The notes below the pieces were generated by a model. It saw only the letters and a list, made by a program, of their open reading frames with translations. It had not been told where the DNA came from and ran no database searches. Source: Chloropicon primus (taxonomy: Eukaryota; Chlorophyta; Chloropicophyceae; Chloropicales; Chloropicaceae). Taken from it: a DNA stretch of 64,000 nt. The stretch covers positions 1,240,001 through 1,304,000 of the forward strand of contig CP060757.1 of assembly GCA_023205875.1 (NCBI GenBank), written 5' to 3'. Shown piece by piece: positions 4,677 through 12,100 of the stretch. Each line of letters starts with the position of its first letter. Position 1 is the stretch's first letter. Made by a program: the position numbers and the translations under genes.

Positions 4677-6101
4677 TCACTCGCAAGCGCCTTCGGCCTT
4701 CCCTCGCACCTTCTCCCAGCACGCTTCGAGCTTGCCAAGAAAATGGTCGACGTCCCTCTCCGTCATCCCGATGGCGGCGGCCGCGTTCAGGTAGCTGTGC
4801 GGGTAGGCCGAAGAGTGCGCGCCGTAGTTTACAAATTCGTGCCCGCAGACGGCCTGGCTCTTCCCCGGGGAGTAGACCCTCGCGCCCGAGATGCATCTCT
4901 GGAACAGCATGGAACCCAAGAACCTCGTCCTCTCGTCGGAGCCCCCGCAAGCGCTCTCGCGGAACCCGTCGAGGGTCATTGCGAAAGAGATGGGGTTCCC
5001 TGGGGTCTCCAAGACGCGCTCCCCCTTCGCTGACGCGAAGCTCCTGAGCCTCTGCCCGAGGTAAAGGTACAAGCTTTCCCTCTCCTTCAGGAGATCGGCC
5101 CAGCCCTTGGCCCCGAGGGAGAGCAGGGTGATGGTGACGTCCAGGAGGGGGGACATGGAGGCCCTGCCCGGGTAGGACTTGTCCACCATCTGGGGCACGT
5201 CCGAGAACCCCTTCTTCCCCACTATCACGGCCCCGCCCACGGGCACCATGAAGTTCTTGTCCGTGGACTGCACCACCGCGTCGACCCTTCCCTTCCTCCA
5301 GGAGGACGTGATCTCCTTGCATATCTCCGAGGACTGCACGCCGTAGGCGTTGTTGATGATGTGGGCCACGCCCTGGCGCTTGCACAGCTTCGCGACGTCC
5401 ACGATCTTGTCCGAGGCGCGGGGAGCGAAGCAGCTCGTGGTGGTGAGCACGCACAAGATCTCTCCCCCCTTGGACTCCACCTCGGCCTCCAGCTTGCCCA
5501 CGTCCGTGACCAGCTGGTCGCCCTCGAGCACGTTCTCCACCACCAGCGCTTGCAAATTGGCTGCGTAGATGCACTTGAGGCACGTCTTCTGATCGATCCG
5601 GGGCCACAGCACGTACTTTCCGCTTGGGTTGTGCCGCTTCAGGGCCTGGAGCACCAACGAGAGCGCCATCCCGGTCGCCACCGGCACGGTCGTCACGTAG
5701 CCCACCTCCCCCAACCCCGCGACCTCAAAGGCGTCCTTGACGAGAAAGTTGCAGACCTTGCACAGGAGGGAAGACCCCGCCGCCTTGGGCTGCACGGCGG
5801 ATATGTCCCCCGACCGACCAATGCCGTGGGCGAGGCCGTAGTGCCTGTCGTACACGAGGCGACTGTGGATCCTCCCCTCTCTCTCCCCCACGCCAGCGTT
5901 CTGCAGAAAGTTGTTGCTGTCCATGAGCGCCAGCTCTTTCAAGAAAAGGCGCACCGAGTCCTCGTCCCAGGCCTCGTCCGGCAGCCTCCTATTCGAAAGG
6001 AGCTTCTTGAAAAGCTTCCGCCTCGACGCCAACGCTTGCGCCCCCTGGTTCAGGTACGTCCCGGGCACCATCCCCTCGCAAGGAGACAACCAATCCTCCA
6101 T
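4677..6101 (-). CDS. SEPSECS: O-phosphoseryl-tRNA(Sec) selenium transferase (SepSecS)
   Basis: 474 residues, start ATG at 6101, no intron. SepSecS is a PLP enzyme that converts phosphoseryl-tRNA(Sec) and selenophosphate to selenocysteinyl-tRNA(Sec), the last step of selenocysteine synthesis in eukaryotes and archaea. Recognisable blocks: LPDEAWDEDSVRLFL, GVGEREGRIHS, HGIGRSGDI at ~92-100 (phosphate/PLP loop), QPKAAGSSLL, WPRIDQKTCLKCI, HIINNAYGVQSS, and QSTDKNFMVPVGGA with the probable Schiff-base Lys282. YPGRASMSP follows. The length equals that of animal and algal SepSecS (~450-500). Its presence shows that this organism makes selenoproteins; land plants lack the pathway. It is divergent from the Fanzor gene across a 280-bp spacer. 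Confidence 0.96.
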   Translation of the reverse strand: MEDWLSPCEGMVPGTYLNQGAQALASRRKLFKKLLSNRRLPDEAWDEDSVRLFLKELALMDSNNFLQNAGVGEREGRIHSRLVYDRHYGLAHGIGRSGDISAVQPKAAGSSLLCKVCNFLVKDAFEVAGLGEVGYVTTVPVATGMALSLVLQALKRHNPSGKYVLWPRIDQKTCLKCIYAANLQALVVENVLEGDQLVTDVGKLEAEVESKGGEILCVLTTTSCFAPRASDKIVDVAKLCKRQGVAHIINNAYGVQSSEICKEITSSWRKGRVDAVVQSTDKNFMVPVGGAVIVGKKGFSDVPQMVDKSYPGRASMSPLLDVTITLLSLGAKGWADLLKERESLYLYLGQRLRSFASAKGERVLETPGNPISFAMTLDGFRESACGGSDERTRFLGSMLFQRCISGARVYSPGKSQAVCGHEFVNYGAHSSAYPHSYLNAAAAIGMTERDVDHFLGKLEACWEKVRGKAEGACE

Positions 6102-6381
6102 CCCTCCCTCCCCCCTCTCGTCCTACGCCATCCTCCCTCCAACTCAACAACAACAACAACAACGTCCTCGCCCTCGGCCGACGACGACGACGGCGCTCGC
6201 GGCGGCCTCTCTGTTGGAGGTTTTCCCCTGTTGGTGGGATTCCAGTGTATACCAGTTTGGTCACACCCAAAGGACAACCCACAAAACGTTTTCTCGTTCT
6301 CACTTGCTGGACAAGGCACTGGTAAAAAATCTAGCCTCGCGAGAGGAAGGGAGGAGGACGCCGGGTGAAACCCTAACAGTC
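6102..6381. promoter_or_regulatory. Divergent spacer between SepSecS and the Fanzor gene
   Basis: 280 bp. It contains a (CAA)n run at about 6145-6163 and a following (GAC)-rich stretch. 6240-6310 is AT-richer and could hold the start of the inserted element; an 8-bp palindrome (CTCGCGAG) lies near 6336-6343. No terminal inverted repeat matching the Fanzor 3' flank was found by eye, so the left boundary of the element is undefined. The spacer must serve as promoter for SepSecS and presumably for the Fanzor gene. Confidence 0.4.
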
Positions 6382-8553
6382 ATGGCGCGATCAGGGAAGC
6401 GCCGTAAGAAAAAGGAGAAGCAGGGGAGTGGCTCGACGAGTTCCACAAGGAGGTCGCACTCTGGCGAGAGTCATGCTCAGGGCGCTTCGAAGTCGGGGCA
6501 GGAGTCTCCGACGACGGAGCGGCCGTTACTTCGGTTCTGGAATCAGGGTTTAGCCTGGCTCTACGCGTTGTGCCTGCTTCCTATTGCGGACGACCCCGCC
6601 TCTGCGGGTGAGGGTTCGAGCACGCCTCGCAAGAAGCGGGGGGGGAAGCGGAAGGAGACGCCGCTGGACGACCCCGCCTCTGCTTTCGAGGAGGGTTCGA
6701 GCACGCCTCGCAAGAAGCGGGGGGGGAAGCGGAAGGGGCGTCCGCCGGAGGCGGACGCCTCTGCGGGTGAGAGTTCGAGCTCGTCAGGCAAGCCTCGCAA
6801 GAAGCCTCGCAAGAAGGGCAAGAAGAAGAACAAGAAGAAGGGTAAGAAGAAGAAGAACAAGAGGGGGAAGAAAGCAGGGAAGCAGCCGGGTGGCTTGGCG
6901 GACGACAGCGTGAAGAAGACCTGGTTCTCATCGATCAAGAGAGAACTTGAAGAGGTAAAGTGTCCGAAGACGGGATGGAGGTCGTGCTTGAACCTTCCAG
7001 AAGATTCTGTGGTATCCGTCGAGACATTGCAGTCGCCCGCCAAAAGGAAGAGGGGGCAGAAACTGAAGACCTCCAAGCTATTGTCGGAGCGAACGGTGAT
7101 ACGGACGAGGAAGCTGAGGATGCGCTTGAACCCTGAGCAGGCGAAGTGCCTTTGCAACTGGATGGGAGCTGCGCGTTTCACATACAACAAGTGTTTGGAG
7201 GCGGTCAAGAAGGAGGGTTTTCCGCTGGTTTGGACCGTCCTGCTGGACAGATTTGTGACGGCCAAACCGCGACGCCCTGAGGTCTTTGAGGGCCTGGAGA
7301 AAGAGCTGAAAGAAATCCAATGCTCTCCACGGCCATGGACAAAACAGGAGGCAGAGCTTTTCGCGGCCAGAGAGAAGAGACTCGAGAGCCAAATTGGAGG
7401 CAGAGCTTTTCGCATCCAAGTCGCCAAGGACCGGGACTACGTTAGCGGGGCCTTTGTAAATCAGGAGCATCCTTGGCTGAAGGATACCCCCTGTGCCATC
7501 AGACAAGCTGCCGTGCGAAGTCTCATCAAGGCATGGGATTCGAACACCGCGAAGCAGGAAGCGATGAAGGAGCGCGGCGAGGAGAAGGGGCACCGCTTCG
7601 TTCTCAAGTATCGTCAACGTCAGCAACCGAGCTCTTGGACCATTGAAATTGATGCAAGAGAGTTAAAGAACGTGGAGACGATCGAAAGGCCAAACACGAG
7701 GCACAAGGATGACACCAAGCACAACAAACGACGCAAGTGGACCAAGCTGGAGGTGTTCAAGAAGAAGATGGCCGGCGGGCCCCTGTACTTGACGGAGGAG
7801 ATCCCCGGGGGCAAGATCGAGGGTGCCGTGAAGATCACAAGAAATCGCCTTGGGCAGTTCCACATGCACATTCCCATCGCGACGCCATGGGATCGCCTGC
7901 CACCCCTGAAGCCTGAGAACAAGCGGAAGGTTGTCGCCCTGGATCCGGGAGTCAGGACCTTTCAGACGTCGTACTCGCCGCAAGAAGGCGTCGGGGAGTA
8001 TGCCAAGGGCGAGCGAGGCTTCGCGAGGCTGTTCAACCTCTGCTGGAGGATTGATGAGATCATTTCCGAGCGCAAAGACCCAAAGGTGAAGCTCCCTTAC
8101 CTCGACCGCCGCGACTTGAAGAGACAGCAATACGCCTGCATGGAGAAACTTCGAGGTCTGACGAACGAGCTTCACAAAAAGGTAGCCAACGATCTATGCA
8201 GGAGGTTCGACACAATCCTCCTCCCGGAGTTCAAGTCCCAAGACATGGTGAAGAAGAACAACAACGGGAGACGCCGAGTGATCAGGAAGAAGACGGCTCG
8301 CACGCTCTTGACGTTGAGGCACTATGCGTTCAGAACGTTCTTGGCTTCCAAGGTGCTCTTGCACGGCAGTGAGCTGGCGATCGTGACGGAGGAGTACACC
8401 TCCAAGACCTGTGGCAGGTGCGGACACATCAAGAAGAACCTGGGTGGAGCAGAGGTGTACAAGTGCCAGAAGTGTGGCTTCAAGTGCGGTCGGGATGTGA
8501 ACGGGGCACGCAACGTCCTCCTGAAGCACTTGCGTCAACCAAAAAGTGTGTAA
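6382..8553 (+). CDS. Fanzor: eukaryotic TnpB-like RNA-guided DNA endonuclease
   Basis: 723 residues from the ATG at 6382, intronless and uninterrupted. Residues 1-235 are low complexity: Ser-rich, then a tandem repeat with STPRKKRGGKRK twice, then a Lys block (~146-178), all resembling nuclear localisation or RNA-binding tails. The catalytic core starts near residue 238 (TVIRTRKLRMRLNPEQ), followed by the N-terminal helix GAARFTYNKCLEAV. It continues with the helical lobe (HPWLKDTPCAIRQAAVRSL), RuvC-I in KVVALDPGVRTF (Asp521), RuvC-II in ILLPEFKSQDM (Glu616), VTEEYTSKTCGRCG, a zinc ribbon with Cys677/680/695/698, and RuvC-III in GRDVNGARNVLL (Asp705). This is the full TnpB/Fanzor order. The PEF and EEYTSKTC wording is closest to IS607-type TnpB, hence Fanzor2-like. 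Fanzors cut DNA guided by an RNA encoded at the element's 3' end. No transposase or recombinase gene accompanies it here. An 18-bp direct repeat (7347-7364 and 7396-7413) is read in two different frames. Confidence 0.95.
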   Translation: MARSGKRRKKKEKQGSGSTSSTRRSHSGESHAQGASKSGQESPTTERPLLRFWNQGLAWLYALCLLPIADDPASAGEGSSTPRKKRGGKRKETPLDDPASAFEEGSSTPRKKRGGKRKGRPPEADASAGESSSSSGKPRKKPRKKGKKKNKKKGKKKKNKRGKKAGKQPGGLADDSVKKTWFSSIKRELEEVKCPKTGWRSCLNLPEDSVVSVETLQSPAKRKRGQKLKTSKLLSERTVIRTRKLRMRLNPEQAKCLCNWMGAARFTYNKCLEAVKKEGFPLVWTVLLDRFVTAKPRRPEVFEGLEKELKEIQCSPRPWTKQEAELFAAREKRLESQIGGRAFRIQVAKDRDYVSGAFVNQEHPWLKDTPCAIRQAAVRSLIKAWDSNTAKQEAMKERGEEKGHRFVLKYRQRQQPSSWTIEIDARELKNVETIERPNTRHKDDTKHNKRRKWTKLEVFKKKMAGGPLYLTEEIPGGKIEGAVKITRNRLGQFHMHIPIATPWDRLPPLKPENKRKVVALDPGVRTFQTSYSPQEGVGEYAKGERGFARLFNLCWRIDEIISERKDPKVKLPYLDRRDLKRQQYACMEKLRGLTNELHKKVANDLCRRFDTILLPEFKSQDMVKKNNNGRRRVIRKKTARTLLTLRHYAFRTFLASKVLLHGSELAIVTEEYTSKTCGRCGHIKKNLGGAEVYKCQKCGFKCGRDVNGARNVLLKHLRQPKSV
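6589..6747. repeat. 78-bp tandem repeat inside the Fanzor N-terminal tail
   Basis: The unit starting at 6589 is repeated at 6667. Both encode DDPASA, then GSSTPRKKRGGKRK. A degenerate third start (DASAGESSS) follows near 6752. The copies differ by only a few bases and one in-frame insertion, so the duplication is recent, and it doubles a strongly basic patch. Confidence 0.85.
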
Positions 8554-8690
8554 CTCCTCAGGGTTGCACATACGTTTGTTAGTACGGGCTGCCGTGCGTG
8601 GGCGGAAGTATTCGTTCATGTACGGTGGAATGGTCGTGGTAGGGCCGAATTACCCTGCCGAGAAACTTACAAACTCGGTGAAACGACCTT
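8554..8690 (+). ncRNA. Candidate Fanzor guide-RNA scaffold / element right end
   Basis: The stretch directly after the Fanzor stop codon is not coding but has potential structure. A 4-bp stem, ACGG (8584-8587) with CCGT (8592-8595), closes a GCTG loop. A 7-bp stem, 8638-8644 with 8653-8659 (GGTAGGG/CCCTGCC, one G-U pair), closes an 8-base loop. CCGAG at 8658-8662 could alternatively pair with CTCGG at 8674-8678, competing with the first stem. In TnpB and Fanzor elements the scaffold RNA lies just 3' of, or overlapping, the nuclease gene and ends at the element boundary, where the flanking DNA becomes the guide. Position and structure fit; transcription and the exact end are unproven. Confidence 0.4.
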
Positions 8691-9155
8691 TGCAGAAAAC
8701 TAACAGGTAAGTAGTGGCCGGCCTTCCTCCGTGTTTCTCTCTTTCAGTGGAAAGGAGAACTTGCCTTTGTGCTTCCAGTATTGACTGTGATTTCCCTACC
8801 GTCCTTTCGTGACTTTTCTGTGTGCTGTTTTTGATCTGATGTCTGAACACCATAACACTCTCCCTCCCTCTCAGTTTTCCTGAAAACTCACGGTCAGGGA
8901 ACTCCAGGCCCTCCCAGAAGGCAGGGAGAACTCCAAGGCAGTGACCTTGGCGTCGAGGAAGGGAGGGGAAGGACAGGTTTGCAGAGGAGGCAGGAGGCAG
9001 GGAGGCGGGGCGATGGGTGCTTGGTAGCCCTGGCCGCGGTTGGCGATTCGTGAGACCAAGCGTCCGAGAAATTTCGAGGGAGGGGGCGGGACGTCTTCCA
9101 CATGGTCTCGCGGGAGGGGAAATAGACCACTACTTGGCACACGAGAGTCCTTGGG
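8691..9155. other. Flank between the Fanzor tail and SCD1 (SCD1 5' leader)
   Basis: About 465 bp without a supported gene. It opens with a splice-like pair, GTAAGT at 8707 and a pyrimidine tract ending CTTTCAG at 8747, which would bound a 41-bp intron. The rest is GC-rich and purine-rich and leads to the SCD1 start codon. Reading frames on the minus strand here look like chance. Confidence 0.4.
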
Positions 9156-12100
9156 ATGGGAAAGTGGATAGAAGCGCTCGTCGTTCTGGGGAGGGCGGAC
9201 GCGTCCCCGGAGGCCAGCGCGCGGACTTCGAGAGCGGCGAGCTCTGAGTTCGACAACCGGGCGTCCATATTGAGGTGCATTCCCGGGGAGGCGAGGGAGC
9301 ACCTCCCACCGCAGCTCAGTGTCTGCTGCCTTCCCACGGGAATCCAGAGAAAGCCTTTCCACCACAGGTCGCTGAGCAAGTACTACGACAAGTACAATGT
9401 CGTCCTCACGGACTCAACGGGCAACAAGACCTACGGCTACTGCTGCACCTTCTTCGACGTTTGCTCCGACAGGGTTCCGCGGGAGGGGGAGAGCCAGGAA
9501 GACGAGTTTGCTTACACAAAGTGTCTCTGCCTGATATCCAAAGACCCTCTCTACTCGACCTTCGAGACCTTGGTGCAGACGATGTACTCCACTTGCTTCT
9601 ACCAGCGGTCGGTGCTGAGCTACAACTACGACCTCCTCGCCGAAATTGTGACGAGAGTGAACCTCTTGCCAAGAGAGCTGGGCAGTCCCATGCACCTCAT
9701 TCTTCCGATCGACAGCAGGACCATTCACCTGGAGTTCGAGTGCCTCCCGGAGGGTTCGCCCTCCGAGATTCAGATCGACGACGTGGTCGGGATCAAGCCA
9801 AAGGCCTTGCTGTGCCTCTTCGAGGCGGTGCTGCTGGAGAGGAAGGTGATTCTGAGGTCAGAGAGCAAAGCCAAATTGAGCGGCGTGGCAGAGGCTCTGT
9901 GCGAGCTCTTGTACCCCATGACCTGGCAGCACATCTACATCCCGATCGTTCCCCAGGGGCTGACAGAGTATTTGGAGGCGCCCACGCCATACTTGATGGG
10001 CGTTCTCTCCAGCATCTCGACTCACAGCTTGAACTACGATCAGTCGATCGAGATCAACATCGACGACTCCACCTGCCACTTTGGGGAAGACTTCTCCCTG
10101 CCCTTCTGTGACGACTTCGTGCTGCTCAGGAAGCGGCTGGAGCAGCTGCCACGGGAGGGCGGCCACTTGGATCGCAACAGGTACTTGAAGCACAGGGAGA
10201 GGGATATCAGGTCCTTGTTCTTGGAGTTCGTGACCAACTTGTTGGCAGAGGCCCGCAAGCACTTTCAGCAAAACAAAAGAGACTTCGGGGAGGTCAGCGG
10301 CCAGGACCCTGACTTTCTGCAATCGTTCATGGAGACGCAGATGTTCCAGAATTTCTTTCACAATTCTCCGGGAATGCTCGACGCCCAAGAATTCGATGCG
10401 ATGAGGTCCCGCTTGACGGAGAGGTTTTCCCTCGTGTCCGAGGCGCAGGCAGTCGGCAAGCAAGTCGAGATCGTGAGCTTCCAATCCATGCTGCCGTCGG
10501 CTGATATAGCCAGCGACCTGGAAGGAGCAAAGAAAAACTCCCTGGCCAATCTGAGCGGTGCGGAGGGGTGGAGGAGCAAGGCGGAGGACAAAATGTACTC
10601 GAAGCTTCAAATGGAGGCAATAAAGAGCGAGAGGATTGTAGACTTGCACGAGTCTGGCCTGCAAGTCACTCCTGATGGTGGTGGAAACAGCAGCGATTTC
10701 TCGTACAACGAGAAGATCGAGGAGCTCTTCGATTGCGTGTACTTATATTTTCAGACGAAATACGGGAACCTTCTGTTCGACACGAGTTCCTCGATTGTCA
10801 GGCAGTGCATCGATAGCGTGGGCAGCATGGAGCATCTGACGGCAATGGTGGACGTCTTCAAGTACACTATTATGGAATCAAAGAGCAAAACGATAGAGTT
10901 CCACAGCCTGGACACCATGCAGAAGTTGATTCCCGTGTTCGAGGACATTGTCATGAAAGCAATCCACTCGGGCGACCACATCTTGGCGTTTGGGGTGCTG
11001 GCCATGAGCCTGTTCATCGAGTACAAGCCCGTGCCTGATGGGGGCGAGGGCATCACGGCTTTTGCGCACGTCGTAAACGATTTCCCGAAGAACAAATCCT
11101 TCTGGGTGGAGTTGGTGTCTTCGATCGTCGGGGGCGCTCAAAATTTGGAAGCAGAGGAGTCGGCGGCCGGCTACGAGTTTGTCGCAGATCTCCTGCTCCT
11201 CTGCTCGGTGATATTTGGTGATGACACCTGGTATGAAGCTTCAGTTCACGATCTCGCCGAGAAGATCACGATGAGCGAGCTCGAAGCAAAGGACATCAAA
11301 GTCATGTGCCTCCTGAGCAAGTCCAAATTTAGTCCAAGGGCAGTCTCCATGTGCCCAGATTCTAACTGGAACTTGCTAGGGAAGTTCCAAGCCGCGGAGT
11401 TGAGAGAAATGGAGGTGCGCCTACCTTCAGGAGAGTTGAAGGCAGCCCCGAATTCTCCCGTGAAGTCTATGGACTCGTTTTCGAACGTGATCATCGCTGC
11501 CACGTGCGATGCCCAGGTCCGCTTGTATAGTAAACCTTCAGGGGGGTCCAAGATACTGAGGGCTCCCGCATCGGTGCTGAGGCAGAGATCACGCCTCAAT
11601 CTCGTGAAGTTTAGTCGGGAAGGGTCCAACTTCTTCATTGTATCAAACAGAATCGGAGTCTGGGACACGAGATCCTTGAAAAGCATTCGTCACATGGAGG
11701 TGGAAGACACTCACTCGTGTTTTCGCGTCAGAAAGAACAATTCGGGGAAGGACTCCATTCTGGCTGGGACTGCAAAGGGAAGTTGCAAGCTGTGGGACCA
11801 CCTGTCCTCGGCCTCAGCTGCCTGCCTATCCTTTGAAGGCCATTCCAAGCAGGTGACAAAGATAACGTGCCTGGAGGGAGACAATAATCTGTTTGTATCC
11901 TCTTCCCGGGACGGTAGAGCTCTGCTGTGGGACGTGAGAAAGAACGGGGAGCCGGTGCACACGATGGTTGGGCACGAGTCTTGGATCACGGACCACCGAA
12001 TTTTCTACTGTGGCGACGACCCCTATCTCGTGTGCGGCAGCGACGATTGGACGAGCACGGTTTGGAACCTCAGCAACGGAAGCCTCTGCTGCACCTACTA

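Follow-up and report, generated by a model that had tools for sequence, protein, structure and literature searches.

An intact Fanzor2 gene of Chloropicon primus nested in a TGTT...AACA transposon, with a candidate internal guide-RNA end and a hypervariable island

The DNA analysed here, a stretch of 64,000 nucleotides (the window) of the Chloropicon primus nuclear genome, contains an intact Fanzor2 gene carried by a transposon. From the sequence evidence, we favour with a probability of about 0.6 the explanation that a Fanzor2 of IS607 descent, together with its complete guide-RNA scaffold, is nested in a TGTT...AACA transposon that would be mobilised in trans, and that its guide would be internal to the element. 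Two features were observed beyond the text of Yoon et al. 2023 (PMC10711439): an end of the scaffold that lies inside the transposon, and a hypervariable island after the scaffold. The transposon, the guide-RNA region and the island were all absent from the earlier note on this DNA and were found in the follow-up.

The Fanzor2 gene and its homologues

The gene and the two sites of its nuclease core discussed below are as follows.

6382-8553, + strand: Fanzor2 gene, 723 codons, coding part without intron
7942-7950, + strand: RuvC-I motif D521-P522-G523, invariant in 121/121 aligned proteins
8389-8391, + strand: codon of Glu670, the alternative RuvC-II glutamate, invariant in 121/121

The earlier note had recognised that a green-algal nuclear genome carries an intact Fanzor, and the gene is indeed an intact Fanzor2: its open frame encodes a TnpB-like fold with RuvC and zinc ribbon, the profile search with TnpB and Fanzor models that the note had proposed gave matches, and the best Foldseek match is mimivirus Fanzor2. 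The mimivirus protein (PDB 9b0l, L79) is only 18–21% identical and has 520 residues versus 723 in the C. primus protein. By family membership, the product is classed as an RNA-guided DNA nuclease of known type.

Residue conservation was scored on 121 aligned proteins, the query and the 120 listed among 710 matches. The TnpB-type core was confirmed, since D705 and the zinc cysteines C677, C680, C695 and C698 are as invariant as the RuvC-I motif containing D521. The assignment of the RuvC-II residue to Glu616 did not hold, this position being E in only 47 of the 121 proteins. A DPG motif with a displaced (alternative) glutamate has been described as a mark of Fanzors and their cyanobacterial relatives, in a rule given as common to Fanzor2, Fanzor1 and pro-Fanzors (Yoon et al., PMC10711439). 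Because E670 is invariant, E616 is not, and the published pair fits, E670 rather than E616 is likely to be the catalytic glutamate.

Constraint on the frame is modest. Among 16 full-length copies of the gene in the same genome, pN/pS over the whole frame was 0.64, with values of 0.49 in residues 226–723 and 1.0 in the N-terminal extension. For residues 515–723 pS was only 0.004 and pN/pS 1.56, the RuvC part being too uniform among the copies to give a selection estimate, so that purifying selection is not measurable there. In a midpoint-rooted tree of 53 rows, which contained no named Fanzor1, the C. primus proteins were placed with weak support (85/53) beside a metagenomic protein, P0006, to which the C. 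primus Fanzor2 is 60% identical; Lipomyces proteins were separated from them by a supported branch (99/95).

Among the homologues, two metagenomic proteins, P0031 and P0058, consist of a Fanzor2-like protein fused in one frame behind an Exonuclease-1 domain. Residues 1–340 of P0031 match PDB 3qea (E 1e-54), and both proteins have XPG_N and XPG_I, although P0058 lacks about the first 28 residues. Both carry the Fanzor motifs, with an apparently intact Fanzor2 core, and the short exonuclease motifs, which we take to be catalytic. XPG domains were found only in these two among the matches listed (120 of 182). The fusion looks old and stable because the two proteins align almost end to end at 51% identity. 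In a literature search for an Exonuclease-1–Fanzor fusion, the word Fanzor was absent among the matches listed. Exonuclease 1 resects broken ends for recombination; through the fusion, RNA-guided cutting could be coupled to end resection, an arrangement that would fit a nuclease copying its element through repair. In a third protein, P0203 of Naegleria lovaniensis (1006 aa), a Fanzor/TnpB part is annotated together with helicase domains (PF00270, PF00271); this protein may be a fusion or a merger of gene models.

The composite transposon and its copies

The gene lies within an element of the following parts.

6212-8857, + strand: composite transposon, 2646 bp, ends TGTTGG...ATAACA; 20 copies aligned with flanks
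6207-6211, no strand: left copy of the target-site duplication CTCTC, 5 bp
8858-8862, no strand: right copy of the target-site duplication CTCTC
6212-6318, + strand: transposon left end, common to four short Fanzor-free elements (91–99% identical over 73–111 bases)
8728-8857, + strand: transposon right end, common in whole or in part to short Fanzor-free elements

The insertion is flanked by divergent SepSecS and DENN/WD40 genes. The C. primus RCC138 genome gave 62 matches to the Fanzor2 protein, at least 16 of them full length and many broken; the 16 full-length copies are 97–100% identical and without stops. In the earlier note, the intact state of the gene and its place between two housekeeping genes had been taken to suggest either recent activity or selection for function. 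Since this copy was inserted as a transposon, with a target duplication, and has many near-identical sisters, recent spread explains its intactness well; selection for function is not borne out by the position between the two genes. That the alga keeps a single domesticated Fanzor gene for a cellular function, as the open frame and the core pN/pS of 0.49 might suggest, is extremely improbable in view of the multiple full-length and broken copies and of the transposon ends and duplication of this very copy; as a single-copy gene, it is refuted by the multicopy state.

Ends and duplications were surveyed in 32 rows, made up of 28 Fanzor copies, three short elements and one solo right end; the Fanzor copies C20:218k and C6:691k were excluded because neither end was visible. 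Both ends were recognisable in 22 of the 32 rows, the two ends of L026 coming from different elements, and 18 of these 22 (17 Fanzor copies and one short element) had a target duplication. The duplication measured 5 bp in 17 of the 18 (16 Fanzor copies, one short element), and the remaining Fanzor copy showed a longer repeat match. Terminal inverted repeats TGTT...AACA and mostly 5-bp target duplications are thus present, as in the published Fanzor2*.

Four short elements of about 350–640 bp, at C1:1611466, C4:428925, C2:1220500 and C5:348419, carry the left 73–116 bases and, in whole or in part, the right 130 around an unrelated middle, with none of the Fanzor part; one has its own target duplication, AGTGG. 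Since these Fanzor-free elements have the same ends and unrelated middles, the TGTT...AACA ends are assigned, by sequence comparison, to a separate non-autonomous transposon family.

TG...CA ends with a 5-bp duplication are features of LTR retrotransposons and Ginger transposons. The rve integrase (PF00665) had no match in the C. primus genome, while control genomes were positive in 6 of 14; a reading of the short elements as solo LTRs was dropped, no integrase match being found in the genome. Searches with one Pfam model per superfamily gave no genome match for the MULE and DDE_Tnp_4 (PIF/Harbinger) transposases, and none for hAT, for which the control likewise gave no match anywhere. A serine-recombinase TnpA, as expected for a canonical Fanzor2 in an IS607 element, is not present in the composite element, and the only four resolvase matches of the genome lie elsewhere, in another repeat. 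These four have equal scores and frames of 375–1006 codons, the C2 and C16 copies being 98% identical over 2.6 kb. This repeat was rejected as autonomous partner, having no TGTTGG...AACA ends in the stretches read (for C3 and C9, right ends only); the best match between its locus L064 and the composite element is of 23 bases (E 0.011).

Several further observations were made on these loci. The resolvase repeat occupies L064:1414-4374 (the C2 copy), C3:1404945, C9:638220 and C16:68745; in the C2 copy, a frame of 986 codons encodes a serine-resolvase domain (PF00239, E 4e-10, in two stretches) and a cysteine-rich tail, and L064 adjoins a tRNA-like sequence (by eye). The 5' leader of the composite element (6319–6381) and its equivalents in sister copies fall by eye into at least three unlike types, and the 7–21 bases before the Fanzor2 ATG into about five allele families. 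In the search for viral relatives, no locus was confirmed.

The Fanzor2 gene and its transposon are already known in print. According to the text of Yoon et al. (PMC10711439), a C. primus Fanzor2, named Fanzor2*, rides on a transposon of the cut-and-paste type that has terminal repeats and makes target duplications; species, gene family and non-IS607 type of DNA transposon are the same as here. That text does not describe the internal IS607-type scaffold end, relatives ending there, the hypervariable island or short Fanzor-free elements with the same ends, all of which its figures or supplements may contain. The 2019 genome paper, in the part consulted, lists 25 IS605-transposase-like genes (PMC6731263).

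The scaffold end and the hypervariable island

The region 3' of the gene was divided as follows.

8551-8707, + strand: candidate scaffold of the guide RNA (reRNA), beginning with the stop codon and ending ...AACTAACAGG, conserved in nine relatives ending there
8578-8583, + strand: predicted pseudoknot 5' arm GTTAGT, paired in 9/9 aligned sequences
8699-8704, + strand: predicted pseudoknot 3' arm ACTAAC, adjoining the scaffold end, paired in 9/9
8708-8721, + strand: guide-position sequence TAAGTAGTGGCCGG (in the family, TAAGTWGKGGCCGG), 5 alleles in 30 copies
8722-8740, + strand: hypervariable island, a per-copy junction into a (CCGTGTTTCTCT)n array

Ten diverged relatives were fetched from the same genome (L054–L062 and L033), of which nine are distinct, L057 duplicating L056. 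They retain about the last 55–105 codons and the region 3' of the stop, L033 this region only. In the nine, a structured region of 89–159 nt ends in AACTAAC(A)GG (in one, AACTAGCGG); the end itself reads AAACTAAC (AAACTAGC in L055) followed by GG in seven and by AGG in two, and beyond it the relatives have no sequence in common in register and run into unrelated DNA. In the composite element the equivalent end is internal, at 8707, 150 bp before the transposon end. The relatives' GG ends resemble the right end of an IS607-type element, and it is from this feature only that we infer IS607 descent; neither a TnpA gene nor a left end was seen in the stretches fetched.

Three helices of the scaffold were paired in 94.4% of cells versus 87.3% in shuffles, and the covariation score was 0.193 versus 0.116, in both cases with 0 of 500 shuffles as high, for a structure that was drawn from the very sequences scored. 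Four pairs were changed on both sides, a number equalled or exceeded by 45 of 500 shuffles, and nine further pair types were found, as high in 416 of 500. The 5' arm of the pseudoknot is lost in one relative, L054, which was excluded from the structure alignment. Rfam gave no match at gathering score in the window and nothing relevant in 6000–9200. We infer that the 3'UTR transcript would fold into a scaffold that the GTTAGT/ACTAAC pseudoknot closes and that the protein binds.

Other scaffold-like sequences were noticed in the genome. L033:768-918 (C3:455267-455417, minus strand) is reRNA-like: both arms of the pseudoknot are present, and it has a AACTAACAGG end and downstream DNA of its own; no Fanzor frame was seen before it, and it is possibly a stand-alone guide RNA. 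On C16, L065:976-1373 and 5463-5860 are two copies 4.5 kb apart, each a Fanzor C-terminal fragment with scaffold, apparently a tandem duplication. Fanzor-like fragments also occur at C14:513915 (L063) and C9:68664.

Variation behind the scaffold was measured in 30 copies, namely all genome matches beginning with the stop codon and extending over at least 247 bases. TAAGTWGKGGCCGG is exact in 28 of them, L010 and L037 carrying one extra base. Its 28 exact matches in the whole genome are all at copies of the composite-element family, and stand-alone targets with the exact sequence were found nowhere else; with up to two mismatches there are 73 + 72 matches, fewer than for the reversed pattern (135 + 125; for places, the matches listed). 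Per 14 bases, the last 140 bases of the scaffold have 1–2 alleles, guide positions 1–14 have 5 and positions 15–28 have 27. The right end directly after the island returns to 1–3 (29 copies); farther right the alleles climb again to 4–9 and then to 16 at the extreme end, a rise due in part to copies whose end is lost. Junctions differ in 29 of the 30 copies (27 distinct among the 28 parsed by script, plus L023 and L049).

The island is sharply confined. Among the 16 full-length copies, at least 12 alleles were reached in only 14 adjacent 14-base windows (starts 8713–8726) of 2614, the median being 1 and the runner-up a T-run in the left end at 6281 with 11. The copies differ by 1.6% on average in the coding part, yet none of the 120 pairs shares a junction. 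The constant GGCCGG ends 14 bases past the scaffold in 27 copies and 15 in two; in L025 it is also 14. This position, just past the first 14 guide-position bases, coincides with the distance at which Fanzors are reported to cut: after 14–17 bases for GtFz1, 16–17 and 20–21 for SpuFz1, 19 for NlovFz2, and 17–18 and 9–14 for MmeFz2 (consulted in part, PMC10432273). A solo right end with three array units was seen at L032:6930-7064 (C1:71433-71563), directly after a gene with a frame that by eye resembles the large subunit of replication protein A.

Possible sources of the guide and of the island

The course of events that we consider most likely, by sequence comparison, is that an IS607-type Fanzor2 jumped into a non-autonomous TGTT...AACA transposon and now rides there with its guide fixed. 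The gene and its own complete scaffold would descend from the IS607-type element, and a putative transposase acting in trans would move the composite element, leaving 5-bp target duplications. The guide would be the internal sequence from 8708 (family sequence TAAGTWGKGGCCGG) with a copy-specific tail, not the genomic flank; homology with the relatives' end and with ISXfa1 makes this rather probable. In ISXfa1, an IS607 TnpB element, the reRNA of about 150 nt has a needed pseudoknot, and one fixed flanking nucleotide separates the element end from the start of the guide (text of PMC10711439). ISXfa1 and the pro-Fanzors resemble the C. primus locus in having the reRNA just 3' of the gene and a pseudoknot, with a GG right end in the C. 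primus relatives. They differ in that their guide is flank outside the element, whereas in C. primus the equivalent position is inside a second transposon and the element has no TnpA gene. The only possible targets of an internal guide would be members of the element family or a lost parent element that the IS607-type copy had entered.

According to Yoon et al., the scaffold of Fanzor1s is predicted to include the terminal repeats and target duplications, and that of Fanzor2*s apparently does so too (text of PMC10711439). In that arrangement, the scaffold would span the right terminal repeat and target duplication, the guide would be the genomic DNA to the right, and the nuclease would cut the empty site and so help the element to be copied back. 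A flank guide, predicted for Fanzor1, 'appeared to be true' for Fanzor2* (same text), and an intact right end is found in 20 of the 28 surveyed Fanzor copies. However, this right end is also about 97% conserved in the short elements, which have neither scaffold nor gene, so that transposition explains its conservation; the relatives end at the internal site; and the duplication, which should hold a target-adjacent motif, has a single enriched base (5-bp duplication sites, n=18: A at the first base in 11 of 18, the sole column passing correction for 40). A flank guide and the copying-back that it entails both appear unlikely to us. The 'ghost' elements of SpuFz1 in Spizellomyces are likewise short (about 550 nt), Fanzor-free and share ends with a Fanzor element (Saito et al. 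2023, PMC10432273); according to the part consulted, they carry a 3' region of 75 nt resembling that which bears the scaffold in the Fanzor loci, whereas the C. primus short elements have transposon ends only.

The edges of the island might be conserved for another reason. G8707 and the guide-position bases make a 5'-splice-site-like GTAAGT, and 8707–8747 could be a short 3'UTR spliceosomal intron, joining ...AACTAACAG to TGGAAAGG..., whose relaxed interior would be the island. GTAAGT and AG are kept in 30 of 30 copies over lengths of 20–72 (median 45), and by eye GTAAGT precedes the same CTTTCAG in two of the four short elements (L029 and L030). The average RCC138 intron, however, is 152 bp (Table 1, PMC12301720, consulted in part), against which 20–28 nt would be exceptional; synonymous sites of the same copies differ by about 2%, far below the island; and the AG is merely part of the shared CTTTCAG in 27 of 30 copies. 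An intron here is also rather unlikely in our estimation, if a fair competitor. At about even odds, the island would reflect nothing but the usual instability of a tandem array rich in C and T, located at an old capture junction, with the nuclease uninvolved. It abuts the array, many of its fillers resemble array pieces, and all changes lie right of the 14–15 guide-position bases, whereas a cut followed by end-joining should erode the left side too. This reading sits less well with joins in 10 of 12 phases rather than in whole units (26 copies keeping the array), with a maximum of 7 alleles in 16 copies in those of 249 purine- or pyrimidine-rich windows that lie outside the island, and with an array end identical in the three short elements that retain it (a small sample, one unit each).

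Within the preferred reading of a nested Fanzor2 with an internal guide, the island could also have arisen by self-cutting. The locus would then be self-editing: Fanzor2 would cut members of the element family, or the lost parent, about 14–20 bases past the scaffold, and error-prone repair would write a different scar into nearly every copy. Its place, its sharpness and the lack of any other exact target in the genome speak for this. Against it, the scaffold's own AACAGG would have to serve as target-adjacent motif; self-cutting would be possible if ACAGG is accepted as adjacent motif before TAAGTAGTGGCCGGCCTTCC, and is excluded otherwise. The one-sided variation also counts against it, as end-joining should lose bases leftwards too; so do the C/T-rich nature of the array and the many fillers resembling its pieces, and a locus that cuts itself should be costly. 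Homogenised DNA around the island was discarded as support, since fourfold diversity is 0.000 in codons 601–720 and 0.033 in codons 241–360, but again 0.000 in codons 1–120. A natural self-editing guide locus is, on this balance, a doubtful proposition. Engineered self-targeting (homing) guide RNAs, Cas9-based, serve as DNA barcodes, and in both cases indels would accumulate at the cut distance in a guide locus that its own product cuts; those are engineered, whereas natural self-targeting is only hypothesised for the C. primus element. Internal guide, intron, flank guide and instability are not all mutually exclusive.

An internal guide would bear on what Fanzors do for their carrier transposons: if the guide is internal, the usual model of cutting the empty site cannot work for this element. 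If self-cutting is true, a living alga would keep, in a hypervariable island at the cut distance, a natural record of what its Fanzor does, and RNA-guided nucleases would have a new use, in a transposon whose hard-wired guide is directed at its own kind. Even with the island as repeat instability, the nested IS607-type end would show the passage of a Fanzor2 from an IS607 element to a eukaryotic transposon.
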